In this document: piece after piece, positions 6,769-56,980 of the stretch
How positions within the stretch are numbered: position 1 is the first letter of the stretch
Layout: each line of letters starts with the position of its first letter
DNA from: Diphasiastrum complanatum
Lineage: Eukaryota; Streptophyta; Lycopodiopsida; Lycopodiales; Lycopodiaceae
Direction of reading: 5' to 3'
DNA: 64,000 nt
Assembly: GCA_029204225.1 (NCBI GenBank)
Contig: CM055100.1
Span: forward strand, 65,691,812 to 65,755,811
The notes under the pieces: model-generated
Seen by the model: only the letters and a program-made list of their open reading frames with translations
What the model was told of the DNA's origin: nothing
Databases searched by the model: none
Program-made: the position numbers and the translations under genes

Positions 6769-6828
6769 ACTTGACTACGACATTCAATACTTGACTACGA
6801 CATTCAACACTTGACTACGACATTCAAC
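6769..6828. repeat. Three tandem copies of a 20-bp unit
   Basis: ACTTGACTACGACATTCAAC is repeated three times with no spacer. The only difference is a T for the last C in the first copy. The near-identity suggests a recent local duplication. Confidence 0.9.
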
Positions 6829-7762: not shown

Positions 7763-7795
7763 TTGAGACCTAAAACCGTCATAGAATCAAGAACT

Positions 7796-8053
7796 CTCTC
7801 TCTCGCCTGCTGGTGCGCTGCCCGCCTGCTAGTGCGCTGCCCGCCCTCGCTACCCCTGCCCCTCTCTCTCTCTCTCGCCGCTCTGCTGGTGCGCTGCCCG
7901 CTTGCTGGTGCGCTGCCCGCCTGCTGGTGCACTGCCCGCCCTGCTAGCGCTGCTGCCCTCTCTCTCTCTTGCGCGCCCACCCGCCCTGCTGGCGCTGCAG
8001 TGCTGACCTTCGCACCTGCCCTGCGCTGGTCCTCCATCTGCTTACCGCCTCCT
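7796..8053 (+). promoter_or_regulatory. GC-rich repeated 5' region of the LINE
   Basis: This C/G-rich block contains about six imperfect copies of a roughly 20-bp unit, CTGCTGGTGCGCTGCCCGC, mixed with CT runs. It differs strongly from the AT-rich flank and directly precedes LINE ORF1. LINEs carry an internal promoter in their 5' UTR, and tandem GC-rich monomers there are common in the class. A frame in phase with ORF1 stays open through it up to 7763. Its product would be low-complexity Leu/Ala/Cys repeats, so I treat the block as UTR. Confidence 0.55.
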
Positions 8054-8962: not shown

Positions 8963-9010
8963 GAACTAGGGGCCCCCGGATATAGAAGCTACCCGAGATC
9001 CCCTACCAAT

Positions 9011-12000: not shown

Positions 12001-12514
12001 TCGTATAGGACAGCTTCGAGTCTCTTCTCATCAGCTTGCTATCGAGACAGGTAGATACACAGACACTCCCAGATTGCAGCGGATATGTCAGCTTTGTTCT
12101 CTTCAGGAGGTGGAAGATGAGTTTCATTTCATCTTTCGCTGCCCAGTATACTATGAGATTAGAGGACGATACCATTGTTTATACCGAGATATTCCCCTCA
12201 CGTTGAGCTCCTTCCTCGAGTATCCAGATGCTAGATGTGTGGGTCTTCTTTTGAGAGAGATGTATATTTTACGAGCTTCACTTCTACCTACGCTCTCAGA
12301 TATGGATTCCAGTCAGGCTCACATTACTCAGTTCTTCCAGAAGCGAGACAGAGTGGATATTTCGGTTGCGGATTTTGACGTCCCCGTCCGAAGATCGAAG
12401 ACACAGAGAGTTTCGGCTCGATCCAGTGCTACTAGATCTTCATACGCCTCCCACCAGCCTACATCACGACCCACTACTACCATCACTCATTACTTTCAGC
12501 TTGCTCCTGGCTAG
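9011..12514 (+). CDS. LINE ORF2: endonuclease and reverse transcriptase
   Basis: One uninterrupted frame of 1167 residues. The N-terminal endonuclease/exonuclease/phosphatase domain shows NCNG near residue 7, AETHES near 33, GDFNA near 148 and SDH near 255, the metal-binding and catalytic blocks of apurinic-type endonucleases. The reverse transcriptase domain has FRPGYSTSDQI near 563, VDFRKAFDSVPR near 595, GVKQGCPLSP near 655 and the catalytic YADD near 696. A cysteine/histidine motif, CQLC with a downstream HFIFRC, follows near 1025. I see no RNase H domain. The protein nicks target DNA and primes reverse transcription on it. The Asp-rich YSTSDQI/FRKAF style is unlike typical angiosperm L1. 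Intact blocks throughout suggest a possibly functional copy. Confidence 0.93.
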   Translation: MRLGFWNCNGFLSSSSAGDFADFIRKCDILLLAETHESLYHPLPNIQEYSWHSAFRPFVRGKTCRGSGGVACLYRDTTVQMVKQDPYARYIWLHIIGSLLGLPQDIYIAVCYFAPQTSVFAEFGGDPFQALSDDIAIFSQQGSILLAGDFNARTSSRQTEFHAATDLLRLYPLDMGLDRVSQDADTPATSFGEQLITLAETHALAILNGLTQWPSSSAYTCYPHGGGHSVVDYFIGSPALISHISDFSITPPTISDHSLLHISLGHITSSLQISCSLPTHKRIPFTQSGFTNYTTILSQLLANFPFMAPIDQQATFLSTSLLAAASSSFPTKTTSSHRSVHNRWYDARCRSLHNHVTYARSHSPATLKQCQKEYHRTTRTKKIKYLQSLCQKMINSLDSPSSSFFWKHFTRHSSTLAPITIESWIEYATELYTTDSPPTSLSPRPDHCSLFTPDMVENAIKHAKLNKATDYDSLSVDFLKPVAHLISPYIAHVFNTAVTSGFPTAWCTNILHPILKAGDPMNVGNYRTIMIGHTLAKIYGSILQTVTGSFAETEGLHAMGQAGFRPGYSTSDQIFILRCIIEEARHRKQRIYCCFVDFRKAFDSVPRHLLFQRLSSLGFSEDTIAAIITLYERVLARFRDGSGWSSQIHSTIGVKQGCPLSPTLFALYIDDLERIIREEGGEGCPLADIIIPILLYADDVVLLSSSAAGLQSHLSALHHFCQRWGLTVNLKKTKIMVFNTNRQHMRDVIFYYDGLPIEIVTSYTYLGVLFSGPLLTFRPAATARLRKGHTALVHMERFCSTYYVQDPATRCLLFSATVSPVVLYSAETWCPDLSRDTWRDLTRIQILMLSRIIRAKPSVPHDIILAEFASPPLVVGAMFQIISFLHRVSDLDTSRYIVAALTSSCTLADQGAKHSWYRSVSALLQTWGLSALDLPNGTHAYIRQQIYRSYIRTIWSHPDPDRVKLHYYGTHLLRLDVSGLPILPVYLTQTLSFGLRYRIGQLRVSSHQLAIETGRYTDTPRLQRICQLCSLQEVEDEFHFIFRCPVYYEIRGRYHCLYRDIPLTLSSFLEYPDARCVGLLLREMYILRASLLPTLSDMDSSQAHITQFFQKRDRVDISVADFDVPVRRSKTQRVSARSSATRSSYASHQPTSRPTTTITHYFQLAPG

Positions 12515-29504: not shown

Positions 29505-31532
29505 TTACCATAAGATGCCATCATACCTAGATGACTTGACCATGAATGAGTGACATAATGAACCTCCAATAGCTACATTTCCATCAGCAAAACCAGCCAA
29601 GAATGCTAGTACAACTCCAACAATAAGATATTGCAAGACAATGTAGCTAGTTTGTCCATATCTTGACAATTTGCACACATTCACATGAAATAGCTCAAAC
29701 ATGAGATAGAACAAGTAAAGTAAACTTGAACAACACTTCCTTGATGCTCCTTTGACCTTACTTGAGTCTTCAATAAGTTGCAGAAACAGATCCATAACAT
29801 CTTTGCCAAATAACCTTCCTTTGATGCTCTTGACTAGCTCCAAATTACCACATTTCCTTTTGTGTTGTTGAAGCTCTTTGAGACCAACCTCTTCATATTC
29901 CTCTTGACCATCAAAGTCATTGAAAGAACTTTGTTTTCCAGATTCATTACTTGCTTTTCCAGTATGAAAACCATGAGAACCAATATCCACTTGCATAGCA
30001 TCATATACACAAGAAAATTCTCCAAAACATGTGAGTAAAGCAAAGTGAGTCGCTTCCACTTGCTTACCTTTCTCTTGATCATCAAAGATATCAAAGATAT
30101 GAATATCTTCAGACCTGAACCTCTGGAAATACTCCCTCTCAAACATATGATCTAGATCCAACAAGATCTCATCAATGCTTGATCTCCAATTTCCACAAAG
30201 CTTAGTGAAAACAATGTCACCAATGTCACCATCATAAATCAAAAGATAGATTCCAAAATTTCCATCCAACAATAAGTAGAGTAGGTGAAGATGAGTATCA
30301 AACCTAATAAATCCAGCCCTCTTGAGTCCATAACAAACCTCAATAAGCTCACCAATGAGATATCCCTTGCCTTGAAGAAATTGCCTCTCGATTTGCTCCA
30401 TGTAGTCTTCTCCAACCAACCTTTTGCCATCTTGATCATGAGTGATCAATTCACAATCATAGGATCCTTTGAGTTGATGAAGAGATGTGAGATCCATGCC
30501 TTGGATCTTCCCAAGAACCAATCTTCCATTGCTCTTTCCTTCACAAGACTCCCTCTTAATAATTGCATCATAAGAAGTAGAAACCTCAATAACATTAGAA
30601 GCCATGAAAAAAATGATTAGTACCTTCAACATAAGAATGATTGAAGTACTCTCTTTTTTCAAACAAGAACTTCTACTCGATGTTTTAGGTAATGAATCAT
30701 ACGATAATGATTCTTCCTCACTATCATTCACAATGACATCATTCAAAGTAGATCCTACTTTGAACTCTTCACATACTTCTCTTCTTCTTGACTCGTGACT
30801 ATCTCCCTCACCAGGTCTCTTGATAGAACCATTTGATCTACTCTCTTTATGAAGACATGTGACTCCACTTGCTGGAAAAATGACTTTCTTGGACTCATCA
30901 CAAAAGAATGTAGAAGAACCACCTCCTTCATGCATGCACCTAGCAACATCTTTTGACATATGATCAAAGAAATCATTAACAACAATCTTTTCCAAGGAAG
31001 AACCTTCACCTTCATTGATGAAATTAGCTCTTTCCTTACCTTTTGCATGCTTGCACTTGCCATGAAGAACCATTGAAACACCATCATTATCCTCAAGACT
31101 AGCCAAGTTAGCACAAAGATGAATTTCTCCAAGAAGCACATTAAATCTCAACCTAGATCTAGCATAAGGAAGATTTTTAGACTTTGCATAAAATCCACCA
31201 ATCTTATTGATGCTAAAAGGTAACTTTGGAAAGTTGAGACCAATCTCCTTTTCCATTCCATCCTTTTTGTTATCCATAACAAAAGCATCAAGCTTGAAAA
31301 GTCTACCTTGTCTATTGCGCCTAGCAACCAAGATTTCTTCCTTTGTAATGAAATAAGCATCACCACCAAACTTTACCATGTATCCTTTCTCTATCATTTG
31401 ACCAACACTTAGCAAATTCTTTGAAAGTGAAGGAATGTAAAGAACACCATCAAACCTTGCCTTCCTATTAGTAGAGAGACAAATTGGAATTGAACCAATA
31501 CCTTCAATCACACACTCACCACCATTGGCCAT
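29505..31532 (-). CDS. Long ORF of a copia deletion derivative (integrase lost)
   Basis: 675 residues without a stop. The first 80 or so residues continue the protease and gag-pre-integrase (VLYIPSLSKNLLSVGQMIEKG). No HHCC or integrase core follows. Instead there is a Ser/Glu-rich linker, then vestiges of reverse transcriptase: YMEQIERQF, CYGLKRAGFIRFDTHL and YLLIYDGDIGDIVF where YVDD would be. The tail, LAFLAGFADGNVAIGG, recalls the RNase H start. Polymerase activity is not expected because YVDD is altered. Long openness despite loss of two enzymatic domains is unusual. It may reflect a non-autonomous family whose frame is kept, or in-frame deletions and chance. Confidence 0.55.
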   Translation of the reverse strand: MANGGECVIEGIGSIPICLSTNRKARFDGVLYIPSLSKNLLSVGQMIEKGYMVKFGGDAYFITKEEILVARRNRQGRLFKLDAFVMDNKKDGMEKEIGLNFPKLPFSINKIGGFYAKSKNLPYARSRLRFNVLLGEIHLCANLASLEDNDGVSMVLHGKCKHAKGKERANFINEGEGSSLEKIVVNDFFDHMSKDVARCMHEGGGSSTFFCDESKKVIFPASGVTCLHKESRSNGSIKRPGEGDSHESRRREVCEEFKVGSTLNDVIVNDSEEESLSYDSLPKTSSRSSCLKKESTSIILMLKVLIIFFMASNVIEVSTSYDAIIKRESCEGKSNGRLVLGKIQGMDLTSLHQLKGSYDCELITHDQDGKRLVGEDYMEQIERQFLQGKGYLIGELIEVCYGLKRAGFIRFDTHLHLLYLLLDGNFGIYLLIYDGDIGDIVFTKLCGNWRSSIDEILLDLDHMFEREYFQRFRSEDIHIFDIFDDQEKGKQVEATHFALLTCFGEFSCVYDAMQVDIGSHGFHTGKASNESGKQSSFNDFDGQEEYEEVGLKELQQHKRKCGNLELVKSIKGRLFGKDVMDLFLQLIEDSSKVKGASRKCCSSLLYLFYLMFELFHVNVCKLSRYGQTSYIVLQYLIVGVVLAFLAGFADGNVAIGGSLCHSFMVKSSRYDGILW

Positions 31533-31554
31533 GTGAATTGCTTTCTTGGCTCCA

Positions 31555-31980
31555 TCATAAGACCAAAGAAGTAAAGAGCTTCTTGTGACTAGTCATGTGT
31601 GAACTAGCTCCACTACCAATCCACCATGAATCTTTGTCATCTTCACTTGATATTGGACCTGAAGAACACATCAAAAGAGAATCACCACCACCTAGATTCT
31701 CATCATTAGTAGTAAAGTTGATTTGCTTGCTATCTTCATCTCTTTGCTTCTTCAAACATTCATTTGCAAAATGCCCTTTGATTCCACAATTAAAGCATTT
31801 CAACTTAGACTTATCTTTCTTTTTGCCAAAAACAGAAGTCTCACCTTGATCTTGCCCTTTAGACCACTTGCCTTTGCCTTTGCCCTTGAACTTGCCTTTG
31901 ATGAACATAGCATCCTCTTCATAATGAGATGTCGATGTAGATCCACCTCTTCTTGATTGAAGCCTATACTCCTCATTCAC
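31555..31980 (-). CDS. Copia gag C-terminus and protease start
   Basis: 141 residues. A basic linker rich in Lys and Gly is followed by the CCHC knuckle CFNCGIKGHFANEC and by WWIGSGASSHM, the protease active site. The catalytic Asp is Gly here (GSGA for DSGA), so the protease is predicted inactive. It lies between gag and the 675-residue frame. A short interruption separates it from each, so the element needs at least two frame changes to read through. Confidence 0.75.
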   Translation of the reverse strand: MNEEYRLQSRRGGSTSTSHYEEDAMFIKGKFKGKGKGKWSKGQDQGETSVFGKKKDKSKLKCFNCGIKGHFANECLKKQRDEDSKQINFTTNDENLGGGDSLLMCSSGPISSEDDKDSWWIGSGASSHMTSHKKLFTSLVL

Positions 31981-34169: not shown

Positions 34170-35408
34170 GTTTATAATTTTTTTAGTTTTACATGGGTTT
34201 TTTGAATTTTATGATTTTTTCGACTTTTCTGTAGTTTGGTTGCAAAGTAACATCCGCAACTTGTACAGTAGGTGTAAAATTCATTTTGAGCCTGCATGTA
34301 GTTGGGCGAATGCTAGTTCAAAAGGATAAAAAGTTATGAGTTCTGAAAACTATTTTGGGGTGTTTTTTCAATGGATCTTCTGATTGGCTAGAAACTTACC
34401 TTCGCTTGATGAACTATAGGTACAAAGTGCCATTACGATACTACTTGCAATTCGGTGAAGATTCCTACAAGAGGATTAAAAATTTATGGCCTCTGATGTC
34501 TTTTTTCAGTCTATTTCCCTCCAAAAAAAAACATAATACTAATGTTTTTGCAACTTTTTATGGATTTTTTCAATTATTTCATTGTCTGGATAAATGAACC
34601 AAACTGTCACTTCTACATAAATGAATCAAAACAGCCACAGACGACACTGTCGCAAAAATGCGACAGGGTTAGCTTTTTGCGAAAAACCTGACAGTGTCCT
34701 TGAAACTCATTTAGGGTAACTCCAAACATTGCCAGAGTCATTTCCTTAACATTTGAGGCACTTTTGAAAAAGCAAAAAATGTGACTCTGCATATTTACTT
34801 GCAAATCCTGACAGACAAAAAATGCAAAAAAGGTGACACTGCATTTTTCAATGAGATTCCTGACAGGCAAAAAATGTGAACTATTGTCAAACTCCATGTA
34901 ATTCTGTAAATTGTGTAAAAACACTTGTAAAACCTGCAAACTGTGAAAAGACCTGGGAAAATCCGTAGAACTAGATAAACAATGGATCATTAGAGGAGTT
35001 TTGGGCACCAAAAGGGCCTTTTGTCAAGATGTTGTTTTTGACTTTTCACCTATTTCATGTACACTTGGCCCAGTTATATATTTACACCTGTGAAAGACCG
35101 TAACGTTGTTTGTTGGTCGAATGTTTTTTTTGAAACATTCTGGTCATATTTTTATACAATTCAAAACTCCCAACGGGCAGGGTCTTGACTTGTGATTGGA
35201 CCGTAATTGCTGCTCGTGAGATTCCTGAGTGCTCGGGACCTAACACTTGTGGTTAAAGTAGGTCTATTTTGATCTAACCGTAGTTAGAGTAACATATATG
35301 ATTTAAGAAAGACCGCCAGCATTCATTACGAATTTGGTTTTTTATTTTCATACTGATTCATCTACATTTTGTTTCAGAATCTATTGTTCATCTTCTTTTA
35401 GCTTTACA
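34170..35408. other. Intergenic, nothing recognised
   Basis: T- and A-rich sequence with homopolymer runs and short frames, none with a domain. Repeated CTGACAG and AAAAATG words occur at 34660-34880 without a clear period. Confidence 0.4.
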
Positions 35409-36529
35409 ATGGCTTCTGAAAGCCATAGACCATGAAGCAATATTGTCTCAGTTTCTATTTGTAATGAAAAAGACTCTGATGGCTCTTGGATATCCCGCAT
35501 TATAGAAAATTTCACTGGGTTCTCATGCATCATTCATCAAGAGGTGTTTTTGGTAAAAAGAGAAAATCAAACATGGATTATAGGAATTTTTAGAAAGCTA
35601 GAATTTTAGACATCAAAGTTTCACCCGGTGGTCGATCCATTTCAGAGGTCTTGGTTCAACATGTCTACATGCACAAGGAAATTAGAGTGAAAGGCATAAG
35701 TTCAAATGACAGGTTCAAATGCAATTGTAAGTTCTAGAGAATTTTTTGCTTTGACCTTTGCATTGACATTTAGACGTGTATCTGAGTATTTAAATGACAT
35801 ATAGTTTTATGGGTTTGTGCATATTTGTATCCATCAAGCATAATCGAATGACAACCTATACAATCCCTTGTCGGCATCATGGATGTTATTTATTCAGATA
35901 TTGGTCTTCTGCAATACAAGAACCGCTCCACGAGATCACTTTTGGATTCTTGTATTTTCTTCTATGATTCATTTTACACACAATCCAGTTTAGGTGGAAA
36001 TTTAGAGGCGATATCATTACCCTCTTTCTCAAGCAAATAATGGATTCCTCCATATTCCACCATAGTAGAGAGCTTCCGATCAAGGTTTTTTATGGACATT
36101 CAAAATTGTATGAAATGTAGCACAGGTTCAAAAAACAATAGATTGCACTGGTTTCTGCCTTTTGCAATATTTGTAGATTTTTTTGCTGAATGTAATATTC
36201 GTAGAACAGTGACAATGTTTATTTGTAGTGATTTAACAGACGACATGTTATCAAGCCTCCTTGATGATCATTGGGATAAAAAGAGTAATGGCAATATTGA
36301 GTGCATAGTTAATAAATCATCAATGAAATTTAGGTATCTTATAAAAAAACAAGTGCTTTCTTTAACATTTTATTATAGAAGATGGTCCAAAGTTGGCAAT
36401 GAATGGAAAGCATTGGATCAGGATTTTATAGCGAATCATCAAGATCAAATAGAAATCCAAGTGAAGCAAAATAATTCTACTATTACAACAATTGAGGTGG
36501 AAGAAGATTGGACACTCGATCACATTTGA
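35409..36529 (+). pseudogene. Degenerate unrecognised gene
   Basis: The plus strand shows coding-like pieces: MASESHRP, then after a stop WISRIIENFTGFSCIIHQEVFL and KRENQTWIIGIF (35480-35610), and a 145-residue frame at 36092-36529 with FPLY-like and YYRRWSKVGNEW motifs ending VEEDWTLDHI. At least three stops interrupt the series. I do not recognise the family. It points towards the ULP/H3 locus and may be part of the same element. Confidence 0.3.
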
Positions 36530-37063
36530 TCAGAGCTTACCTTGCTGCAATATGAAATTCCTATACACTTTTGTTTTCGATTCAATGAGAGATTGGTATG
36601 TGTACGTGTGTTTATTTCAGTACACATTTGAAATGACTTTCAATGATTTTATCTAGAAATACTTCAGTGTTTTCGGTATTGCAATATTTCATTTAAAATA
36701 ATCTCAATGTTGATATTGTTTAGCAAATTTCTTTGATGTACAAGTAAGACCAAGACAAGAAAGTCACATACAGTGCAAGGATTTAAATAGAAATTGTCGA
36801 AACCGCATAAACATTGGGATGATAGACGTGCAACAACAATGTATCTTTCAAAAAAAAGGAATACAAAGAAGTCTCAAATGACTTCAAGATTTCATCAAAC
36901 AATTTGTATTTAGTATTTTGAAAAATGTACATTGTTTTTAAAATCAAAATAATATATTCGTGGCTTTCAGTAATAGCCCACTTTCTATTGCCTATCTGTT
37001 GTTCTATACATCATCATGTGATGATATATTTCTATGTGTCTGTCGGAACTTATGTGACAATAT
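36530..37063. other. Non-coding stretch before the ULP gene
   Basis: No domain-bearing frame. It lies between the end of the plus-strand relic and the 3' end of the minus-strand ULP gene. Confidence 0.45.
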
Positions 37064-38388
37064 TTACATTTCAATCATAGGTGCATGAGGCATATCCTCG
37101 AGCACTGCAACTTCATCCACAAAACCCCTGGCAGCTTCATCCGAGGCACCTTCATGCTTGTAGGGCCTTGCACACGATAGTAAAATTTCTAGCATTTCAT
37201 GCCGATACTGATGAATAGATTTATTGACACCTCAGGACACTGGAACTGCAAAATAAAACATCGAGTGTATGTATGTACTAGCCAATGTTTAAAAAAAATA
37301 AATACACAAAGTTAACATAATATCATCAAGATACTAGAACTTGAGAAAAATATCTCACGAATACTAGCATTTGGAGGTTGCACCATATACCAATCCAAAA
37401 AAGATTTAAAATTCCAGATGGAAAACCATCCGCAACTGAAAGCATCATCTTGCTGCAAAGACTTAGAAATCACAACGAAAAATTGTTAAATTATAATTCA
37501 ATATAATTCTAAATTCCATGCCATTATGCAAAAAAACAACGTGAAAAGATTCTTTTTACCTTTGCATCAACAATCTCTATGTTAGTATTTACAATCAGCC
37601 CATCCGGCCTAGGCAATAGCTCCACCATCCTCTTGTACATGGACTTAACCATGGAATGGGTAGCATGCAAGGAATTCATTGTCATGCACACAGGTCTGCA
37701 GCTTCCAATAGAATCCACTTTCATAGATATGATATGCACACTCCCGAATGTTTGCTGCCAGCAAATGACAAGCAATGAATTACTAGAATTTGTAAGAGTT
37801 TACAAAAAACAAATCTTACAGAAAACAAATATTATAAGAAAAAATTATCTTACTTTGAACAGTATGGGGATGATGGACATTGACGCCTCCTTGCTAGTGT
37901 GCCTGGAGAGCCTTCTGGCTTTCCTCTCTTTATTCAACAGATGCCCAAAAAATGGAGATACAACAAAAATCTCCTTCGTGACTGTATATGCGTATTTATG
38001 TACATAGTATGCACAAGCGGATTCAACTATTGTGTCTGAGATATAGGAGGTCTTCTCTTTTAGCTCCCTACAATGGGGGTTTTTGATATGCATTGCAAAA
38101 TTAATATCATCTATACAAAACATAAACTCTCCTCCGGGATAATCTATTTTCTTGGTTCTATACATTTCAAAATCAATGTACCTCTCAGAATCAAAGAATG
38201 TGTCTTTAGGGTCATTGGGAAGTCTGATGTGCAACTCTTTATCAGGTGCATCAACATCAGAAACAATTAGGTCCACCACTATATTTAGGTCATTTGCATG
38301 TATAGAGGGAGAATTGTGCATTTGAAGATCAGGGGTTAGGGGAGGACTCTCGACCCATGGAATTGTAGAAGTGCTAGCCAGATCTTTT
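37064..38388 (-). CDS. ULP1-type cysteine peptidase gene (multi-exon)
   Basis: Four exons can be read with consensus splice sites: 38388-37854 (donor GTAAGA), 37754-37560 (acceptor GCAG, donor GTAAAA), 37452-37359 (acceptor TTTGCAG, donor GTGAGA) and 37245-37064. Exon 1 carries an acidic region and YPGGEFMFCIDDINFAMH. Exon 3 carries QDDAFSCGW, the Gln/Cys block of C48 peptidases (Cys codon 37432-37434). In exon 2, TF stands where the catalytic His-Trp is expected and MNSLH where LDSL is expected, so the His and Asp may be lost. Exon 4 has an in-frame TGA at 37232-37234 before a 56-codon open tail. ULP enzymes cleave SUMO; a dead version could only bind. The frame is open upstream to 38414, with no obvious promoter between it and the H3-like ORF. 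Confidence 0.6.
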
Positions 38389-38469
38389 CTATGGGAGGAG
38401 GCGAGGGTGAAGAGCTAAGAGACCTGGGCTTGGGTTGTGAACGCTTGGGCTGTGCTTGCTTTCTCTTTT

Positions 38470-38922
38470 TCAGGGTGGGACAGGCCCCCTTTCAAGAGGA
38501 AATTGCCTCTGTGTGAAGCCAGACTTAAATGTGCTGTCATAGATATTTCGAAGCCTCATGACAAGAAGCATGTCCTTGGGCATCAGTGTCACCCTCTTGG
38601 CATGTATCGAGCACAACATCGAATCCTCAAACATTTTTTTTTGAAAGTCCTCGTATGCAGTATGGAGTGCCTCCAATGCAATGATATTCCACCTCACTGC
38701 ATAGGACAGATGAGTGGTCATATCTTGTGTAACCTCTCTCACAGCCCGGTAGAAGACTACTTTCGGGATCAGAAGTCTGGTGCTCCTCTGCAATGCCCTG
38801 ATGTTCCTCAACCATGGACGGCGGGGTCTTCCGTGTCTTTGCGGACGTACAAGTTCAGAAGTCTGCGGATGGGATGGTTGAACAAAGCTGGTAAGCCTAG
38901 CGGTTTGCTTCGTCTGAGCCAT
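38470..38922 (-). CDS. Divergent histone H3, centromeric-H3-like
   Basis: 150 residues from an ATG giving MAQTKQTAR, the H3 N-terminus with Gln for Arg2. The tail is short (about 31 residues) and lacks Lys9 and Lys27 contexts (ARLTS instead of ARKST). The histone fold aligns without gaps from RPRRPWLRNIRALQRSTRLL to the end except for one extra residue in loop 1. LLIP, RW in the longer loop 1 (AVRWN), and DSMLC/VTLM agree with plant CENH3 rather than canonical H3; HAKRVT and MPKD are shared H3 features. After MRLRN a 24-residue extension replaces the usual RGERA end. The frame is also open 37 codons upstream. No intron lies within the fold, unlike typical CENH3 genes, suggesting a retrocopy or captured copy. 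Confidence 0.75.
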   Translation of the reverse strand: MAQTKQTARLTSFVQPSHPQTSELVRPQRHGRPRRPWLRNIRALQRSTRLLIPKVVFYRAVREVTQDMTTHLSYAVRWNIIALEALHTAYEDFQKKMFEDSMLCSIHAKRVTLMPKDMLLVMRLRNIYDSTFKSGFTQRQFPLERGPVPP

Positions 38923-38930
38923 TGAGGCCA

Positions 38931-39176
38931 GATATCTATACCACGCGAGGACAAAGGTACAGCAGTAAAGAAAGTTAGATTCTCTCGCGTGATGGTGAAA
39001 CTGGGACTTCTGAGGATAATATCGCAATGACACGAGAGAGTGGCAGAGTCAAGCGAGGAGTAGAAAGCACTCGCGTGATGGTGATATCGGGCACATTCAG
39101 GCTGATATCACTACGACACGAGAGGGTATTAGGGACAAGCCTGTAGATGAAGTCGCTCGTGTGATGCGATATCAGG
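38931..39176. repeat. Three tandem palindromic units in the H3-like leader
   Basis: TATC...CACGCGAG and its inverse CTCGCGTGATGGTGATATC alternate three times, at about 38933-39000, 39017-39092 and 39096-39176. Each pair forms a hairpin with an 8-bp core stem (CACGCGAG/CTCGCGTG or a near match) and loops of about 25-45 bases. They fall within the transcribed leader if transcription starts downstream of the minus-strand TATA box at 39251. Confidence 0.75.
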
Positions 39177-39250
39177 TATGCAAGTCATATGGAAGCGATT
39201 GAAGGTGAAAGCAAATTACGCGAAAACCTGTACAATCTCTGAGAATGGAC

Positions 39251-39258
39251 TTATATAG
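39251..39258 (-). promoter_or_regulatory. TATA box for the H3/ULP unit
   Basis: The minus strand reads CTATATAA, about 330 bp upstream of the H3-like start codon. A transcription start near 39220 would give a leader of about 300 nt containing the palindromic units. It mirrors the plus-strand TATA box at 39725. Confidence 0.6.
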
Positions 39259-39272
39259 GCGAAAAACGTTTC

Positions 39273-39645
39273 CACGTGTGAATACTTGTGACACGTGGCC
39301 CAATCAGTAACTGACATGTGGAACTACACATCTGTATACACACGTGTGAAACTGCGCATCTAGAGCAACACGAGTGGGATTTCACATCTGGACACGTGGC
39401 CGAATGGTACAGTGTCTTGCACGTATAAGCTCGCACATGTGGGCATGTGGCCCAATCAGTACCTAACGTGTGGAACTACACGTCTGTATCCGCACGTGTG
39501 AAACTGCACGTGTGGGGATTGCCTGTGTGGCCACATGGTCGAATGGTTTAGTAACGTGTATTCTCGCATCTATAAGCTCGCACGTGTGGGCACGTGGCCG
39601 AATGGCAGATTTACGTGTATTGTAGCACGTGTGGTCTCGCACGTG
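39273..39645. promoter_or_regulatory. G-box array between divergent TATA boxes
   Basis: Ten perfect CACGTG hexamers start at 39273, 39292, 39341, 39393, 39493, 39507, 39581, 39591, 39626 and 39640, with several one-off variants (CACATG, CATGTG, AACGTG). They lie in a degenerate tandem repeat of about 150 bp, marked by GTGGCCCAATCAGTA at 39295 and 39446 and by GTGGCCGAATGG at 39396 and 39594. CACGTG is bound by plant bZIP and bHLH factors. The density and central position suggest a shared regulatory block. Confidence 0.75.
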
Positions 39646-39724
39646 TTGACGGTTACATTATGCATCATAGATCTGATCCGTTGTTGGATCGACGCGTGTA
39701 TAGCTTGAATTTTATTGGTTTTAG

Positions 39725-39733
39725 CTATATAAA
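39725..39733 (+). promoter_or_regulatory. TATA box of the divergent plus-strand unit
   Basis: CTATATAAA lies about 270 bp before the first ATG of the plus-strand frame at 39999. The facing arrangement with the minus-strand TATA box makes this a bidirectional promoter candidate. Confidence 0.6.
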
Positions 39734-39821
39734 TGTTGTTTGATCAGTTAAAACCTTTCGCTAAGTTTTTGACTTTCACTCTCTGTAGCTCTTGGTGTGT
39801 CAACACTACTAGTTCTTTGCA

Positions 39822-39970
39822 GTATCGCTACCACGCGAGAATCTACTTCAGATTCTAGACGATCTTGGATCCCTTGCGTCGTTCTGATATCTGGTCATTC
39901 ACCAATATCGCCATCACGCGAGGACTGCCATATAGTCTTCTAACTCCCTGCCACCCCGCATCGTAGCGAT
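39822..39970. repeat. Palindromic units in the plus-strand leader
   Basis: TATCGCTACCACGCGAG, then GATATCTGG...TATCGCCATCACGCGAGGAC, and an inverted CGCATCGTAGCGATAC occur here. They are the same words as in the H3-like leader on the opposite side, in mirror orientation. The two leaders therefore derive from one inverted duplication or were both shaped by the same repeat. Confidence 0.7.
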
Positions 39971-39998
39971 ACTTGGCCCTATTGTTCATACCTTCTAG

Positions 39999-41278
39999 AT
40001 GGCCGTCTCATCTTCTAATACTTTTGATTATGCGTTGCACGCCTTCCTCGTTGAATTCGATGTTGGTAACTACATAGGTCATATAAGACGTATTTCAATA
40101 TGTCTTTTGATATCGAGAGGTTTGGATCAGAACATAAATCCTAATTTCCAGCGTTGTATAAAGAGTATTATGATAGTTTGAATCAGTCTATGTTGATAAT
40201 GGATAATCTACGATTCATCCATTTCCATGCCCAACCATCTTTAAAGCAAGCCCACAATTGACGATTCACGAAAATAGTGAGTGATTTTAAACGTGTGGTC
40301 CATTGTGACCAGCACAATCGATCATGTCACTTTTTGCAAGAGGCCATGGGCTTTGTGTTTTAACTTTCTACTCTTGTTCCTGAAGAGGCAGGAACTTCGA
40401 GGCTAAGCATTGAGGGTGCCTCATCATCAACTGATTCTGTGATATCAGAGTCAGCTATTGTTGATGACGTCTTGGTGGGTATTGACGAGGAGGCAAGATT
40501 GACAACAATGTACGACCCAGCCGAGTCTCGTGCATTGTCCATTTTTTTCTTATATGACGTGAATCCATATGACAAAACCAAGTCGGTCCTCGACTTTCCG
40601 GTGTATTACATGAATAGTGTTGCATACCTCTCTCTGAATGATGTTGGAGATGTTCTTGATCTGAGGGAGGATCTTGTCTAATTTTATCAAAGAATTCAGG
40701 GACTTCATAGATCTTGAGGGTGATGATGATCTATGTGCTTCTATTGATTAAAAAGACGGAGATGAATGGCTAGACGGGACTGAAGCCCTACAGTCAAGTA
40801 TGTCTAAAAACAGGGCATACCAGGCAAATTTGCCCAGTGAGGAGGAATTTTTGAGAATTCGGAGCAAATATGTGTCATAGTCTTTGGAAACTAATCCATC
40901 CACTACTGTGATGACCATTGTTTTTGGTCATGATCTACATACTGCTACACTTATTCAAGCTTATGAGCGTGATCTGGTAGGTAAATCTGGTTTTATCTGA
41001 GTGAGATTTTTATTCTAATATAGTTATTTTGTTCTTCAAGATATGTGACCTTTGCTCGTATTTTACAAGCTACTGTGGAGGTGGATGCCTTTGCATTTGC
41101 AACAAGGCAAGGATATTTGAGGGAAGGCCAGAGATCACGACAAAGGGATTCATCCCTATCCCATTATTTGAAGTGCTTTGTAAATAAAGAAGTTTGCATT
41201 CATCATAGCAAATTTTCTTCAGATGCTACGACGATAATAATGGCAATTAAACCGTTCCTATTTCTCGAATGGGCATAA
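39999..41278 (+). pseudogene. Divergent partner gene, unrecognised and decayed
   Basis: Coding-like pieces in changing frames: MAVSSSNTFDYALHAFLVEF, SLNQSMLIMDNLRFIHFHAQP, RFTKIVSDFKRVVHCDQHNRS, an 80-residue acidic piece with DPAESRALSIFFLYDVNPYD (40439-40681), DGDEWLDGTEALQSSMSK, and GYLREGQRSRQRDSSLSHYLK (41045-41278). At least five stops or frameshifts separate them. I do not recognise the family. Its leader matches the mirrored H3/ULP leader. Confidence 0.35.
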
Positions 41279-41565
41279 ATACCCTCCGAATACATATAAA
41301 ATTATTTTTGCAAAGAGAGACATTGTCATAAAGGTATTTGGCTATGTGGCTAAGGAAGTTCCTAAAAGGTCTTCCTCCTTAGCTGTTTTCTCCGAATACA
41401 TTGACTTGAGCAAAAGAAGATCCATATGATAGAAAACAAAATTTCCTTGACCACACAACAAAGCTGATCATTAAGACAAAGAGAAACAATGATTTTGCCT
41501 TGCATTGTACTTGAAATGATGCGATATAATACATATACTTTTTTCGTTTGATATCATGAAAATTA

Positions 41566-42702
41566 TTATGAGTTGAGTCTTGCATCAATATTATTTTCAT
41601 CTATAAATTTGCACGCCTTTCTGAATTTTTGATAATTTGTTGATCTAGTTTTATATCGGATTTGAACACGCCTGTAGAACCATTGAAATAGCTGGATGAT
41701 GTAACTATTTTTTTGAGATGTTCCACCGTGTTGTGTATTTCGATGAAATGCTGCTCTGGCTTGCCAATGCGATTTCTCCATTCCTTGTGATGACCAAATA
41801 CTTAGACTACCGTAAGCTTTTGCAAAAAATGATGCATGATGTTGTAAAATGTGCTACAATATTAGAGATACAAATATTGTCATATTAATCATTTTAAATT
41901 TAGCATATGTGCAATGAGATTATAATTCAAAGAGTTAGTTACATTGAAAGGAGATTTACCATATAATTCGTAATATGACCTTCATCCCAGGTGTCTTTAA
42001 CTGCATCCACAAACTCAATTGTTGATTTCTCAATTAGTAGGACATCAGTATCAGACAATTTATCTTTTCTGAGCAATTTGACCATGTTGTCAAGCTTTGT
42101 CTAGACTTCAACTTTTTTAATCCTCGTTGTTCCTTTTTCTTTAAAATCCTTTGTGGCATTGAGTACATCTATCCAGATTGAGAACTGGATTTTAGTCGGT
42201 TTTTCGGAATGATTTGATAAGAAGCGACGAGCTTTGGATCCTACTATGCTTGGTTTGCAGGAGATGTTTCCTGTTTTCCCTGAAAGCTTCTCGTCCTTTT
42301 GTATTTTAACGTGTCCTTTATGAAGTCCCGCTTTTGATAAATATCTTCCAATCGAGCTATTGCTTTTTTGGCTAATGACTCTGACTTAGTATTCCAAACA
42401 AACCAAATATGAAGGTATATCATTTTTTTGATAATTCTAACCTCTCCATGTAGTGTACAAATGTGAACATTTTTAAGCGGAATCGGTAATACTTGTTTCT
42501 AAGTCGGATCTTCTATATCCCTTGAAACTCTCGTGCTCTTCGACATGTCTTGTGTAGTTTTCATGCAATAGAGGCATGGATGTTTTAAATTTGCTCCATG
42601 TGGGACATTGAACATGTACTTCAACGACTTTAGGTCTCCAGCCAAATGCCATTCCACATTAAAATCACATATTCCAGGAACATTGAGTGGTGTGTCGCTC
42701 AT
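41566..42702 (-). pseudogene. Decayed transposase-like gene, family not recognised
   Basis: On the minus strand a series runs FNVEWHLAGDLKSLKYMF and HPCLYCMK (42499-42702), VHICTLHGEVRIIKK (about 42440), IGSKARRFLSNHSEKPTK-like sequence (about 42220), LDNMVKLLRKDKLSDTD and FVDAVKDTWDEGHITNYM ending at a donor (GTAAAT, about 41960), then GMEKSHWQARAAFHRNTQHGG (41700-41781). Stops and frame changes interrupt it. The CxxC and repeated Trp/His/Asp blocks are transposase-like, but I cannot place the family. It is convergent with the pseudogene at 40-41.3 kb. Confidence 0.4.
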
Positions 42703-42929
42703 ATGATTCTTAATTATCTCTGAATATTCTGTTTTACTAAAAATCCAAAATAGTCATGATCTTCTTTTAAAACCTGTTTGAAATACACAATCACGAACTA
42801 TTTTAAGAGAATTGAACTTAGACCTATAATAACAAAACAATATTAGTTGAAAACACAAAACCATAAATTCTTGAAATGAATTAGTTGCTAGTACTCAATA
42901 GAATAGATTTAAACCTGGAAAGCTGCTAA

Positions 42930-44640
42930 CCACCAAATATTCTTCTTCGATAACTCCATTAAGATATGTTGTCTGTACATCCATTTGATGTATTTCCAAA
43001 TCTACTGCAGTGGCAAATGATAGCAAAAGTCTAATAGAAGAATGCTTGACTATTGGACTGAAGGTCTCAGTGTAATCGACATTGTATACCTGAGAAAATC
43101 CTCTGGCGACAAGTCGTGCCTTTCTACTATAGATGCTTCCATTTGCATTGTACTTGACTTTGAAAATCCATTTGCAATCAACTACGTTTATGCTAGCAGG
43201 CAATTCGACAATTGTCCATGTCTCGTTCTTGATAAGAGATGAATATTCTTTCCAAAGATCGGAATCAGGCTGACTGAGTGTCTCTTGGACGGACGTTGGT
43301 TTCCGAACAAGGTAGGCTGCAGCTCGTCGATATACCAGTTAGGTGGTCTGCTAGTTCTTTGAAGATCTTCTAGGTAATAGAGAAAATTGATTGTTTTGAT
43401 CATACTGTAATTGTTGAATTGCAACATCATCTTCTTCTGATTCGTTGTTGATTTGTTGTTTGTCAAAAGTAGAAGAGCTTGGACCTTCAATGGGAATAGT
43501 CGACTACGGAACTGGAAAGTTCAATGCGTCAAGAGAATCTGACAGGTCGGCTACATGGGGACTGCCCTTTCCTTTGAGGTCTTAAAACTTATCTTCGATG
43601 AAGATGACATCCCGGATAGTGAATATCTTCGACTCGATGAAATCGAACAACTTGTAGGCTTGATCTAAAGTAGTGTAGCTGATGAAAACACATTTGATAC
43701 TCCAGAAGTCGAGCTTCTTCCTGAGATCACAAGGTATCTGTGCAAATGCAGTACATCCAAAAACTCGTAAGTTTGATAAAGAAGGTTTGGTATCTGTCCA
43801 AACTTTGAAGGGTGTTTTGTTTGAGAGACCTTTAGTAGGACATCTATTCTGAATATAGGTTGATGTTGAAACAACTTCAATCCAGAAGGACTTCGGAAGT
43901 GTCACATGTGATAACAGCACTTTGCCGATTCAACTAAGGTTGTGTTCTTTCTCTCAACAAGACCATTTGACTGAGGCAAATAGAAGGTAATGTATTGTTG
44001 CTCAATGTCGTTGTTAAGACAATACGCCTTGAATTCGGTGGAGATGTATTCTCCCCCGTTATCTGACCTCAGTACTTTGATTCGTTTGCCAGTTTGATTC
44101 TCAGCATGTTCTTTGAATTGTCTGAATTTGATGAAAGCCTATGATTTCTGTTTAATAAAATAAACAACTGTTCTTTTGGAGAATTTGTCAATAAAGATAA
44201 TAAAATACTTTGCATCTACCAATGAAGGAGTTTGCATAGGTCCACATATATCTGTGTGAACAACATCTAATAGAACTTTTGCTGCATGCATATGGTTTGA
44301 TCTGAAAGGAATCCAAGCCTGCTTTCCAAAGTTGCAGTTATGACAGACAGGGAGATTGACCTTACCAGAAGGATAGTCGAGATCAAGAACCATGGATTGT
44401 CTGGACATGTTCAAAATAGATGCATGATTCAAGTGTCCTAAGCGATGAATGATGCCATAGTAATGCCTTATTGACTAGAACAGAGGTTTTCAAGGCTTGA
44501 CTAGACTCAGAATAACAATGTGCCAATCTACATAAGTAACCCTGCCTCTTACCGAGTGCAAGGATCAGATTCTTGTTACTCCTATGAATAATTTTGCGTT
44601 GATCATATTTGAATTCTACCTTATTTGTCTGAGAATTCAA
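42930..44640 (-). mobile_element. Copia fragment, integrase to early RT (minus)
   Basis: From the 5' side it shows gag-pre-integrase remnants (SSQALKTSVLVNKALLWHH), integrase (VHTDICGPMQTPSLVDAKYF, then SHVTLPKSFWIEVVST) and the start of reverse transcriptase ([37 protein letters not shown]), all broken by stops and frameshifts. Both ends are truncated and no LTR is seen. It is the same family as the plus-strand copy at 48.4-51.6 kb: SQALKTSVLVNKALLWH and TLPKSFWxEVVST are shared. The two copies lie in opposite orientation on either side of the H2A gene. Confidence 0.8.
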
Positions 44641-48417: not shown

Positions 48418-51400
48418 ATGCCATATAACTTTGTTTTGAAAGTATGGGACAACCTGAGCTCACTATATGATGTGAGGGACATGACTTCCAAGTTGCATCT
48501 CAAAAGGAAATTCTTCAAACTCAAGATGTTGAAGGGTGATTCACTTCAAAATCATGTTAACCAATTTAAGAATCTCTTGCAACAGATGGCAATTGTCGGA
48601 TCGATCATCGACAATCAAGATGAAATCATGACATTGCTTTCAAGATTGCCTCCTACATATGAAAACTGGGTGATGATCATATCGACACCACTCAGATTTA
48701 ACTCTTACTAGAGTTATCACTATGTTGCTGCAAGAAGACAATCGAAGAAGTCAAGACACCACTTTGACTTCATCATCTTATGCTCTATATGTCAACAATG
48801 GCAAAGCAATAGAAGAAGAAAAGCTCTAAGCAATCCGCGTCAATTCAGAAGCCAACAAAGTCAAGAGCAATTATCAAATCCACAATCGAAGAAGAAGATG
48901 TTCTGTAAGTATTGCAAACACACTAATCATGAGATCCAAAATTGCATGGTACTAAAAGCAAAGAATTCGAACAAGCAACCATATCAACAGGCGAATACAG
49001 TCGCAGTATCATCTCTATCTCCCAAACTTGACATGGACGAAGGAGCATTTATGGTCAAAGACCAAAAGGCATGATTCGATAATTCTTGGTTTCTAGATTC
49101 CGGAGCTACTAAACATATGACCAGTCATCGTGAGCATTTTCACTCCTATATGCCTTACATTACAAAGATATTCGTTCATCTTGGCAACTATAATATACAC
49201 ACTATCGAAGGTGAAGGCATTGTAAGATTGAAGTTCCAACATGATCAATTCAAGCTACTATTAAATGTTTTCTATGTACCTGAACTCTCTATGAATCTGT
49301 TATCAGTAAGTAGAATCATTGATCTAGGTCATAGGGTAGAGTTTGAGTCCGATCAATGCCGAATTATCGATAGGACAAATAAGATCCTTGCATTGGCGCA
49401 TGGTTATTCTGACACTAGCCAAGCCTTGAAAACCTCTGTTCTTGTCAATAAAGCATTGCTTTGGCATTATAGATTATGACACTTGAATCATATATATGTG
49501 TTGAACATATCCAGACAATCCGTAGTACTTGATCTCAACTATCAAGCTAACAAAGTCGACCTCACTTTTAGTCACAGGTACATCCTTGGAAAACAGACTA
49601 GGATGTTTTTTAGATTGAGTCATAGGCATGCAACAAAATATGTTCTAGATGTTGTTCATTCAGATATATGTAGTCCAACGCAAACTCCGTCATTGCTTGA
49701 TGCAAAGTATTTCATTACCTTCATTGACGAATATTCGAGAAAAACATCTGTTTATTTTACTAAGCAGAATTTGGAGGCTTTCAAAATCTTTCGACAATTG
49801 AAAGAGTGTGTAGAAATGGAAATTGGTAAAATAATCAAAGCGCTTAGGTCCGACAACTAGGGAGAGTACATCTCTACCGAATTCAAGGAATATTGCCTTA
49901 AAAACGGCATTGAGGAACAATTCATTACCTCCTATTCACCTCAGTCAAATGGACTTGTTGAGAGAAATAACAGAACCTTAGTCGAATCGACTAAGTGTAT
50001 GCTTGCTCATGTGACACTTCCGAAATCCTTTTGGGCTGAAGTTGTTTCCACTACAGCTTATATTCAAAACAGATGTCTGACTAAAGGTCTCTCAAACAAA
50101 ACACCTTATGAAGTTTGGACAGGCTCCAAAGCATCATTATCAAACGTACAAGTTTTTGGATGTATCGCTTATGAGCAAACACCGTCAGACCTCAAGAAGA
50201 AACTTGACTTCCAGAGTATCAAATCTATTTTCATTAGCTACATTGTGTCAGATAAAGCTTTTAAGTTGTATGATCCTGTCGAGTCAGAGGTATTCACCAT
50301 TTGGGCCATCGTCTTCATCAAAGATCAGTTTATCGACCTCAAAGGCAAGGGCAAAGGTCATATAGTCGAACTATCAACCTCTCTTAAAATATCGAACACT
50401 TATGTTCCTGAGTCGACTATTCCTATTGAAGGTCCTAGCTCTTCTACTTCAGACAAACAACTTATCAATAGTGAATCCGAAGATGATGATGTTGCATCTC
50501 AACAACTACAACATGATGAAAATAATCAACTTTGCTCATTTTCCAGAAGATCGACAAGAGAACTCTCTTATCAAGAAATAGACTTGGACTATTGTTGAAC
50601 TACTTGCCATCAAAAATGTAGTTGATTGCAAATGGATATTTAAAATCAAATAAATGGCAGATGGAAGTATCGATCATACAAAAGCTCGACTTGTCGCAAG
50701 AGGATCCTCTCAGGTACATAATGTCGACTACACTGAGACTTTCAGTCCAGTAGTTAAACATTCTTCAATCAGACTTCTATTGTGATTTGCTGCTGCAGCA
50801 TATCTAGAGGTTCATCAAATGGATGTACAAATAGCATATCTTAATGGAGTTATCGAAGAAGACATTTAAATGATGCAATCCCAAGGTTATAATATTGAAA
50901 GCAAATAGAATCATGTATGTAAACTCCACAACACACTTTATGGCTTGAAGCAATCTGCTAGAGCATGGTTTCAAAGGATCAACACTTTTCTTATCGATCA
51001 TGGCTATAAACCAAACACTTCAGATTCTAATGTCTAATTCAAGTTAGTGCAGCATTCCTTTCTTATTATCACTTTGTATGTGGACGACACACTGCTTTTC
51101 AGCAACAATATCGATCTAATAAAAGAAAGCTAAATCAATGTTGTCTTCAGAATTTGACATGATCGATCTGGGCGAAGCTCATTACTGTCTAAGTATTCAA
51201 ACCCAAAGAGACAAAAAGCAAAAGTTGATTTACATTACTCAACAAGGATACATTCACAATATGTTGATTATCAGATATAATCTGACGAATTGCAAGTTAG
51301 CTCACTCACCAATGGACCCATGACTCAAATTGTCGAAGGACCAATGTCCTCGGATGATCGAAGAGGAGCAGATGTGTGAGTATTCTTATCATTCGATAAT

Positions 51401-54392: not shown

Positions 54393-55484
54393 TTAGAGTG
54401 TAGCTAGCTGCTGAACACTCATCGGAGAGCAGATTGCATGATCTGTATCCCACCACATTGAATTTGCGAGAACATAGTTTGTCATTTCTGTTGGGTGAAA
54501 TTCATCCCACCATAAATATGTGCTTGCGTTCTTGCATGCCATTTCAGGAAAGATACACATCATCCAACCACCATATACTTGTGAACCGCAGCATGCATCG
54601 CTCACAGTCTCAAAACCTGCACTTGAAAATATTAGTAATATATCTCGGTATTGATGAATAACCAACTACAAAATCAAGGTTGAGAAGACAACTTCAAGGC
54701 ATTATCAGAAACACCTTAGGATTGAAAATTTTGACCACAAAATGTATCTTCTAGTGCATGATACCTATTGCAGATCAATTTGGATCCGTAGAAATTTCTA
54801 ATCCTTGCAGTTTAAAGAATAAAGGATGGACAAGTTTAGGCTCAAATGATACCATAAGTGCGCGGGCTTTCGATAATCCGCTGCAAGACAGCATATATAT
54901 CACAGAAGATGATGTTCATCCCTGGAAGCCTTCTATTGAGATCTTCGACTGCAACATTCACTGCGCTGTTGTAGTCATTAACCATGATGTTCAGATCATC
55001 AACGCATCTGCCTGCCGCGCTTGCGGCCTCCTGGAAGAGATAATGTGGCGCACACCCCAATGGTCCCACGCCAACCACTACCATCTTCCGAACGCCACCA
55101 TTGTACAGAGCCTGCAAGAGAGAAGAGATGCTTTTTTTATAGGTCCATCAACCAGACTGCAAGCCTGAAAGAAGAAGCTTGAGGTGATGAAAACAAAAGC
55201 TGAATTGAGAAGAACTTTAACCGTTATCTGCTCAGATAATCTGGACACAAGTATCTGACTGAAATCATCTGGGGCGAACTTGTGCTGAACTCCTGAAACA
55301 TTCCTCAGGTAATAATGGATGTAGTCATTGCTACCAATTGAGATGTAGGCTATGGATCGTGAAACTAGCGTCTTAGCAGTTTCTTCTCCCAGAAGCAAAA
55401 CGAATTCGTCTATGGTATCAAGCATGTCTTTGATTTGCTCAACGAAGGGAATATGTTGACCCTACAAGGATGAAACAAAACCCA

Positions 55485-55573
<89 letters not shown>

Positions 55574-56552
55574 CCAAATCAGCTCCACTGGATAAGAGAA
55601 TGCCTGCGCCCCCGGATGCAAAATTTACCCCGTGCTGCATGGTAGAAGCATTTTGCTGGGTTAGATACGCCGGTACCAATGGTAGCCCAAGGAATGATGC
55701 TGCAAACAAACAAATATTTGCGTCAGGAGAGCTTATACGCGTCAGTAACTTTGAAAGCATCATCAAATAAAGCAAGGATGTATTGTGGTTACCAATATAA
55801 TCCACAGTTAAACGACCATTGCTGAATCTTCCAGTTGGTCTATGAGTATCAAAATCTCGTCCGTATGGTGGAAGATTTGCTCTAGCCAGTGTGATTAGGT
55901 AATTGTTGTTCCCAGAGTCGACAGTGGAGTCACCAAATATAAAGAATGCAGGCACACTCGTTCGTTTCAGTTCTTCAAATCCATTTAAAATTTCCCAGGC
56001 ACCGTATACTGAAGATTTGCTAGTTAACACTGGACTCGATGCATTCTCAGAATCGGATGTATCCAACAAATCAGACGTGATCTTTGTGCCGTCTTCAGTG
56101 GCTATCATCTCTAGATCGAGGAGGGAATCAGGCGGAGATTCTAGTCTGTTACTGCGTATCAGTAAGCTCGATTTAGCATCCTCTGTTCGATCTTCGGAGT
56201 CACAAGAATCTTCTAATACGTACGCATTTTCTGTGCTAGCAAAAATTTCGAGTTCAGAACCGGAAACAACATTCTTCTTTTCGGCAGAGTCACCGCTTGC
56301 GACTATAGAAGTTTCCTGATGTACAGCGGCACTCACAAACCGATCATCATCCGATCTGATGGATGCCTTGTCCGCAGCAATGCCAATCATTCTTGAATTC
56401 ACACCCGGAATCTGATGAAAAATTGTTCCCAAACAAACTATCACGAGGAGCAAGCAATCAAGAAACACACAGGCAAATACAACAACCGTAAGCAGTTTCA
56501 TCATTAAATTTCTGCTCAGCTCCAAAGACGCCTGCAGACGATTAATCCTCAA
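54393..56552 (-). CDS. GDSL-type esterase/lipase with membrane anchor
   Basis: Five exons on the minus strand: 56552-55793, 55699-55575, 55461-55222, 55111-54853 and 54616-54393, all GT-AG, giving about 535 residues. SGNH blocks are complete: [14 protein letters not shown] (Ser near 209), [16 protein letters not shown] and WWDEFHPTE (Asp/His). Plant GDSL proteins hydrolyse acyl esters, often in the wall or surface lipids. Unusually, about 200 residues precede the catalytic domain: a hydrophobic segment at about 18-45 that may be a signal anchor, then an acidic Ser/Asp/Glu-rich linker. Most family members have only a signal peptide and about 350-380 residues. Splice sites and catalytic residues are intact, so I consider it functional. 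Confidence 0.92.
55489..55568. repeat. (GA)40 microsatellite within GDSL intron 2
   Basis: Forty GA units on the plus strand, (CT)40 in the sense of the gene. Intron 2 is only 113 bp (55574-55462), so about 70% of it is this tract. It directly follows the donor site. Confidence 0.95.
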
Positions 56553-56980
56553 AGCGATTCAACCCTTCTGATCGTCTCTCGCTTGCAGATCCCGTTTATC
56601 GGAGTCGCTCCCTTTCAGATCAGATCTTCTTTGTCAGACATTATGCAGCAATGATGCATTCAAGCAATTTTACGAACGATCTTCTGCATTAACTTTTGGC
56701 TATGGCGGAACAAAGGTGACACACAGGAGAGCCCTAAACCTAAGCCAGAACTAGGGCAATTAGGGCTTCGAACTGGAGAATGAACGGGAAAATGGCAGAT
56801 ACAAAAACCCTAATCCGATGGTTTTAACCCTAAAACCTGTGGGAAGAAAAATATCGAAAGCCGCTCAGGTTCTACTCTGTGATTACGTTTTTTAGTTTAA
56901 GTTTTGAGGTTTGGGTTCTCGGGAGAGCAATGATGAGGTGATGTGAGAGAGAGAGGTATTTAGGGTTTGCATTGGGGCTG
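56553..56980 (-). promoter_or_regulatory. GDSL upstream region with telo-box motifs
   Basis: AAACCCTAA-type words occur at 56805-56813 and at 56960-56968 (minus), with related CCCTAAA words at about 56735, 56760 and 56828. Telo-boxes mark many plant promoters and leaders of actively transcribed genes. No clear TATA box was seen. Confidence 0.45.

Follow-up and report, generated by a model that had tools for sequence, protein, structure and literature searches.

Proteins of the VANC and KIU (Kaonashi) type, which are encoded by accessory genes of VANDAL Mutator-like elements, bind to arrays of motifs in the elements that encode them and reverse silencing (PMC13317346, PMC5735166, PMC10398659). 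Some of these proteins carry an Ulp1 domain, the use of which is described as unexplained (PMC13317346), and the portions of the three texts available to us make no mention of a histone fold. In fungal hAT elements of Pyrenophora and Pseudocercospora, an H3-like sequence has multiplied within a DNA transposon, reaching tens or hundreds of copies (PMC6710886). The occurrence of H3 in transposons (fungal hAT, PMC6710886) and of Ulp1 in transposons (MULEs, PMC13317346) is already known. A transposon protein that fuses H3 with Ulp1 and is kept by selection was not found in the literature searched.

Here, we describe gene C of an approximately 10-kb element with terminal inverted repeats, which encodes an H3-like tail and fold joined through a basic linker to a ULP1/C48-like region extending over exons 1-3. 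A decayed copy of this gene lies in the window, a stretch of 64,000 nucleotides from the lycophyte Diphasiastrum complanatum. Comparison of copies shows that the layout is common to a second, diverged family (family II, as opposed to family I of the window) and that the gene bears the marks of purifying selection. As the best explanation of the whole, to which we give a probability of about one half, we propose that gene C encodes a DNA-transposon accessory protein with an anti-silencing action. Like the VANC/KIU genes, some of which include a Ulp1 domain, gene C is a putative accessory gene carried by a plant DNA transposon, has a Ulp1-like part, and stands in an element whose non-coding DNA holds a dense array of a short motif (for VANC/KIU, PMC13317346 and PMC5735166). 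It differs from them in that the ULP-like part stands behind an H3 fold, the element ends in inverted repeats, a Mutator transposase was not recognised, and the arrayed motif, CACGTG, occupies a single upstream block. The likeness to the fungal hAT elements lies in the multiplication of an H3-like sequence inside a DNA transposon; the portion of that study at hand mentions no fusion and reports the Pseudocercospora fijiensis copies as mostly truncated (PMC6710886), whereas gene C is a fused, intron-bearing gene that selection has apparently preserved in two diverged families, in an element for which no 8-bp duplication was seen.

Layout and decay of the window copy

On the minus strand of the window, a histone-fold ORF starts at the ATG at 38922 and ends at a stop codon at 38470-38472, giving 150 residues from the ATG, and it matched the Pfam family Histone (PF00125) with E=1.3e-24. 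A separate frame on the same strand is open from 38414 to 37845 and is followed by short exons to a stop codon at 37064-37066; taken singly, these later exons matched no Pfam family over the cut-off. Both the H3 frame stop at 38470 and the ULP frame open from 38414 had been pointed out in the original prediction, and both were seen in our analysis. The features of the element copy are as follows.

34988-42941, minus strand: copy of the element, shortened at the 5' end compared with c9 and equivalent to c9 positions 2033-9979 at 88% identity
34988-35000, no strand: 3' terminal inverted repeat CATTAGAGGAGTT
37064-38922, minus strand: decayed H3-like/ULP1-like fusion gene, from homology to other copies
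38922-37854, 37754-37560, 37461-37354 and 37245-37064, minus strand: fusion-gene exons 1-4, from homology
38473-38922, minus strand: H3-like module, with tail MAQTKQTARLTSF, fold and start of the C-terminal extension; open in the window
38389-38472, minus strand: basic linker, framed by the intron-mimicking 1-bp deletions 38471 and 38392
37854-38388, minus strand: N-terminal half of the ULP1-like region (YISD and PFF motifs)
37560-37754, minus strand: exon 2, ULP1-like HW...NSL; HW destroyed in the window by two inserted bases
37354-37461, minus strand: exon 3, ULP1-like QQDDAFSCGW
39251-39732, no strand: promoter-like divergent block, with TATATAA at both ends and ten CACGTG
39999-41429, plus strand: gene B, degenerate ORFs, divergently transcribed
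41566-42941, minus strand: gene A exon remnant, candidate transposase (SQGMEK in this copy, GDLK and CLYC in further ones)

The two open frames had been taken for parts of a single host plant gene joined by a 136-bp intron at 38524-38389, and GT and AG are present at the borders of this putative intron. We found, however, that the window carries 1-bp deletions at 38471 and 38392, and that the base lost at each position is present in all of the 15 copies compared. This count covers c1-c10, L002-L005 and L007, that is, 15 of the 23 other aligned sequences; c1b, L006 and L031-L036 were left out of the count and the display. Both stretches are free of frameshifts in 13 of the 15 copies; in L002 and L005, separate 1-bp deletions occur there. 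The stop at 38470, the second open frame and the apparent intron borders are thus due to the two 1-bp deletions in the window, and what looked like an intron is their scar. Its removal as an intron would delete protein sequence that is conserved among the copies (FKSGFTQRQVPLERGPVPPRKKRKQ...) and is partly recognisable in the second family. Since the gene is, moreover, repeated at least 150-fold, it is a gene of a repeated element, and the reading as a host gene with a joining intron is practically untenable.

Further lesions were found along the gene. Exon 1 contains three 1-bp indels in the window, namely the deletions at 38471 and 38392 and an insertion at 37869 near the exon end, and exon 2 contains the two inserted bases, at 37745-37746, inside the HW motif. 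An additional 1-bp deletion is located at 37341, just past exon 3. The later introns had been predicted to have consensus sites and to stay in frame; the splice junctions of exons 2-4 are traceable in other copies, in agreement with this, but the exon-3 donor is altered in the window (GAGATA, as compared with GAGGTA in most other copies). We take the window copy to be a dead, decayed copy of the element, as its lesions suggest.

A repeated element in two families

The H3-like ORF and the ULP exon served as queries against the genome from which the window derives (1.745 Gb in 5,176 contigs). The H3-like search gave 6,775 first-look candidates, of which 150 were scored and all 150 matched, at 73-100% identity; the ULP search gave 4,301 first-look candidates, and again all of the 150 scored were matches, at 67-100% identity. 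Both copy counts are lower bounds. Given the Pfam E-value and the 150/150 scored genome matches, the signal in the window is more than chance. Ten of the best 150 H3 matches have no internal stop and an open frame longer than 350 residues, as compared with 150 residues in the window.

Ten copies (c1-c10), picked for long frames, were fetched. In 10/10 of these, a single open exon holds the fold, the basic linker and the beginning of the ULP part, which bears out the prediction that an H3 fold and a ULP1-like region are combined in one gene, and the frame remains open to the exon-1 donor in seven of them. Decay is common elsewhere: among the other copies, the six with the best scores that were translated (L002-L007) all reach a stop codon by residue 161, and an additional copy in the fetched DNA (c1b) stops at residue 22. 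Three copies (c3, c6 and c7) were followed exon by exon. Copy c7 (contig C2, 51.67 Mb) is open in all four exons, the phases of which match; in c6 the open stretch covers exons 1-3, and in c3 exon 2 is disrupted.

Linkage of the two parts was also assessed outside the long-frame copies. Finding relatives in which the parts are unlinked would have spoken against a fusion; in a partial check of this kind, H3-like sequence was present upstream in 6/6 diverged copies with 67-72% identity in the ULP exon, though only partially in L033-L035. For 71 of the best 150 ULP matches, one of the best 150 H3 matches lies upstream in the same orientation, at a distance of 200-1200 bp; the other 79 are unpaired within the two best-150 lists, which make up a small part of all candidates. 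Overall, the H3-like and ULP1-like parts very probably belong to one protein, and we have little doubt that the fusion gene is part of a mobile element.

Copy c9 is 9,979 bp long and runs from CATTATAGGAGTTCCAAGGCCCAAAAGGG to ...CCTTTTGGTGCTCAAAACTCCTCTAATG. The terminal inverted repeats bound the element and also two short derivatives; these MITE-like sequences, at L019:6390-6699 (~310 bp) and L023:3341-3719 (~380 bp), are situated close to two other copies and have the element ends and no visible target-site duplication. Elements of the hAT type generate an 8-bp target-site duplication. Inspection by eye revealed no target-site duplication, including one of 8 bp, in any of three complete insertions. 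Gene A shares its strand with the fusion gene, contains GDLK, CLYC (CxxC) and SQGMEK motifs, and is conserved across copies, with diverged relatives at 29-60% identity. Neither its exons nor their join gave a Pfam match over the cut-off, including any to a Mutator-type transposase; we infer that gene A is a candidate transposase. An assignment of the element to hAT or CACTA was considered and is unsupported. Other features of the window include an ORF of 1,183 residues at 8963-12514 (plus strand) that looks by eye like a non-LTR retrotransposon polyprotein, Copia-type pieces with Pol_BBD and SH3_retrovirus domains at 29505-31592 and 49861-50598, and an ORF at 55410-56558 with a GDSL lipase match barely over the cut-off (24.2 vs 23.6 bits), possibly a host gene fragment.

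Gene B is transcribed divergently from the fusion gene, and the CACGTG block lies between the two. In the window, the block is delimited by TATATAA at 39251-39257 (minus strand) and 39726-39732 (plus strand), with ten CACGTG between them at 39273-39645, so that 10 of the window's 17 CACGTG fall within 373 bp. Two TATATAA in that stretch were reached in 34 of 200 shuffles and are not unusual by chance. In the nine copies counted (c1 was not counted) and the window, the 1.1 kb preceding the ATG contain 2-14 CACGTG and the following 3.9 kb contain none, in 10/10 sequences, and GCGATAT and TCGCGTG recur in the block of most of these sequences. By eye, a CTCGCGTCGTAGCGATATC-like motif is present in inverted orientation on either side of the block (window 38940-39950), within what we presume to be the 5' leaders of the divergent genes. 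The block constitutes a dense array of a short motif in the non-coding DNA of the element, as in the VANC/KIU systems. As CACGTG is also widespread in plants as a site for transcription factors, the array may simply represent a normal promoter.

Low-stringency searches of the fetched DNA revealed relatives at 38-46% identity, which we term family II. One of them, L041, encodes MARTKSTAH... and a histone fold 45% identical to that of the window when a TAG is read as Q, followed by a post-fold extension resembling that of family I and a basic linker. Downstream of these, the motifs SDAIVE, VSPFF, IPYEN, HWS and QQNDAFSC were found, with frame changes between them. A relative of gene A adjoins another family-II copy. 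Because the H3-linker-ULP layout is common to both families, it seems to be older than the divergence of families I and II. The TAG occupies an identical codon of the histone fold (S*FFED) in 3/3 family-II copies, namely L041 (nt 745 onward), L040 and the left end of c6 (L019); it may be an amplified stop, or it may be read through.

Relationships of the histone-like and ULP1-like parts

The histone-like ORF of the window scored 87.2 bits against PF00125 (cut-off 26.4) and barely exceeded the cut-off for CENP-T_C (30.9 vs 28.1 bits), and its best PDB matches were histone H3 chains, with E-values down to 7.7e-23. In AlphaFold2 predictions, the mean pLDDT was 32 for the exon-1 product and 47 for the histone module, with helices placed, at low confidence, where the H3 fold has them. 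The tail is like MARTKQTARLTSFV and varies between copies: in the alignment, the K4 context is mostly kept, K9 is replaced and the K27 region is gapped, so that the modifiable lysines K9 and K27 are absent from it. A giant-virus origin was also considered; a scan of viral contigs with two short peptide patterns, a weak approach, revealed no relative, as none of its 102 pattern matches was confirmed.

CENH3-like traits had been predicted for this part, and they are present in family I: loop 1 has a four-residue insertion relative to H3.3, RW stands at the start of helix 2, and SMLC and VTLM are present, as in an Arabidopsis CENH3 sequence. Plant CENH3 (CENP-A) resembles the family I protein in the longer loop 1, the Trp at the start of helix 2 and SMLC/VTLM, but gene C differs in its C-terminal fusion, in the lack of the loop-1 insertion in family II (L041) and in its about equal identity to H3. 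The histone part is 48-53% identical to H3 and 45-50% identical to that CENH3 and, given this near equality, may descend from either. One might suppose from the CENH3-like traits that the fold enters nucleosomes with host H4, that the ULP-like part shields the product from SUMO-dependent removal, and that the element thereby inserts into or exploits CENH3 chromatin. A retrotransposon is said to integrate via CENH3 chromatin (Tsukahara 2025), which would count for such centromere targeting. We nevertheless consider it unlikely, as the identities to H3 and CENH3 are so similar, family II does without the insertion, and the best 150 H3 matches are spread over 36 contigs.

The relationship of the C-terminal part is more remote. 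The joined ULP part did not match Pfam C48 (PF02902), and a PDB search with it returned one irrelevant match (E=0.37). In a genome search with PF02902, in which 150 of 520 candidates were scored, three matches were listed, all at other places; the best of them, L037 on contig C5, is a host C48 gene that appears NEDP1/SENP8-like by eye. On alignment to yeast Ulp1, the identity was 21%, with YISD/WLND, FF, HW, NSL/DSL and QQ-x5-CG in register. The ordered motif pattern occurred in 0 of 400,000 shuffles, with the Asp relaxed to Asn after the sequence had been seen; the strict C48 pattern gave no match, as the copies read have Asn (NSL) in place of the catalytic Asp. When profiles were aligned with hhalign, the similarity to Ulp1 together with the host C48 gene was weak with family I alone (E=0.044, 2/60 shuffled controls scoring higher), for which 5 of the 13 joined copies were used and copies with stops were left out, and was still weak after family II had been added (E=0.015, 1/200 controls scoring as high). 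The part thus shares with Ulp1/SENP (peptidase C48) the order of WLND-like, FF, IP-HW, (D/N)SL and Q-x5-CG motifs, and differs from it in lying below Pfam detection and in the replacement of Asp by Asn. We call it C48-like and not a member of the family, on the basis of motif order, and consider it probable that the part is C48-related.

The replacement of Asp by Asn in the would-be triad, the missing Pfam match and the weak hhalign score would also be expected if the C-terminal part were a catalytically dead SUMO- or DNA-binding domain that keeps C48-like motifs, and the would-be catalytic cysteine is Tyr in 3 of the 13 joined copies. We regard this as possible though doubtful, since HW and QQ are both kept in 11 of the 13 joined copies (c5 lacks W and c10 lacks QQ) and the cysteine in 10; moreover, the diverged copies L031 and L032 retain HW, QQ and C, and family II retains HW and QQNDAFSC.

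Selection on gene C and its possible role

The pooled dN/dS for the ten open copies, a sample from which copies with stops were left out, was 0.395 (tail 0.49, fold 0.36, linker 0.33, ULP exon 0.45). The ratio of replacement to silent changes (N:S) was 139:73 for changes found in a single copy and 30:32 for changes shared by two or more copies (Fisher p=0.018), as compared with a neutral expectation of 2.3-2.5, to which the single-copy changes are near. Picking open frames lowers stop counts and should not lower replacement counts. The shared changes are poor in amino-acid replacements, suggesting that the fusion was maintained; we read this as a protein kept during the spread of the element, with decay after insertion. 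For the exons of gene A, the shared-change N:S values were 15.5:13.5, 25.5:16.5, 15:13 and 9:12. Those of the gene B pieces were 20:17, 36:15 and 30:8, which indicates that gene B is less clearly constrained, and the depletion is not uniform across the ORFs of the element.

These data bear on the idea that histone and ULP-like fragments were merely captured and then amplified without function, like the H3 pieces of fungal hAT elements. There, transduplicated H3 is reported to be mostly truncated and inactive in one species (PMC6710886). Stops in many copies of gene C, and single-copy changes near neutrality, would be in line with such a passenger. Nevertheless, we consider this origin quite unlikely, as the shared changes are poor in replacements, the layout is kept in two families that are 45% identical in the H3 part, and the introns and ULP motifs have been retained.

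Our preferred explanation remains that gene C encodes an accessory protein acting against silencing. Through its histone fold, the protein would be located in chromatin, possibly together with host H4 or on the CACGTG array of the element, where its ULP1-like part would act on SUMO by removing or binding it. By analogy with VANC/KIU of the VANDAL elements, removal or binding of SUMO would loosen silencing, so that the element would be expressed and move. The anti-silencing role taken by itself, resting on this analogy, is put forward tentatively. A bolder proposal holds that a plant DNA transposon superfamily encodes a centromere-type H3 fused to a SUMO-protease domain, as a chromatin-entering anti-silencing protein or a centromere-exploiting selfish histone variant that deSUMOylates its nucleosomes; in this strong form, we judge it unlikely to hold.

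If gene C is functional, it would represent a histone variant evolved by a parasite. It would also offer a direct test of how a plant transposon may counter silencing through histone exchange plus SUMO removal, and it would help to explain the role of the Ulp1 domain in KIU elements.
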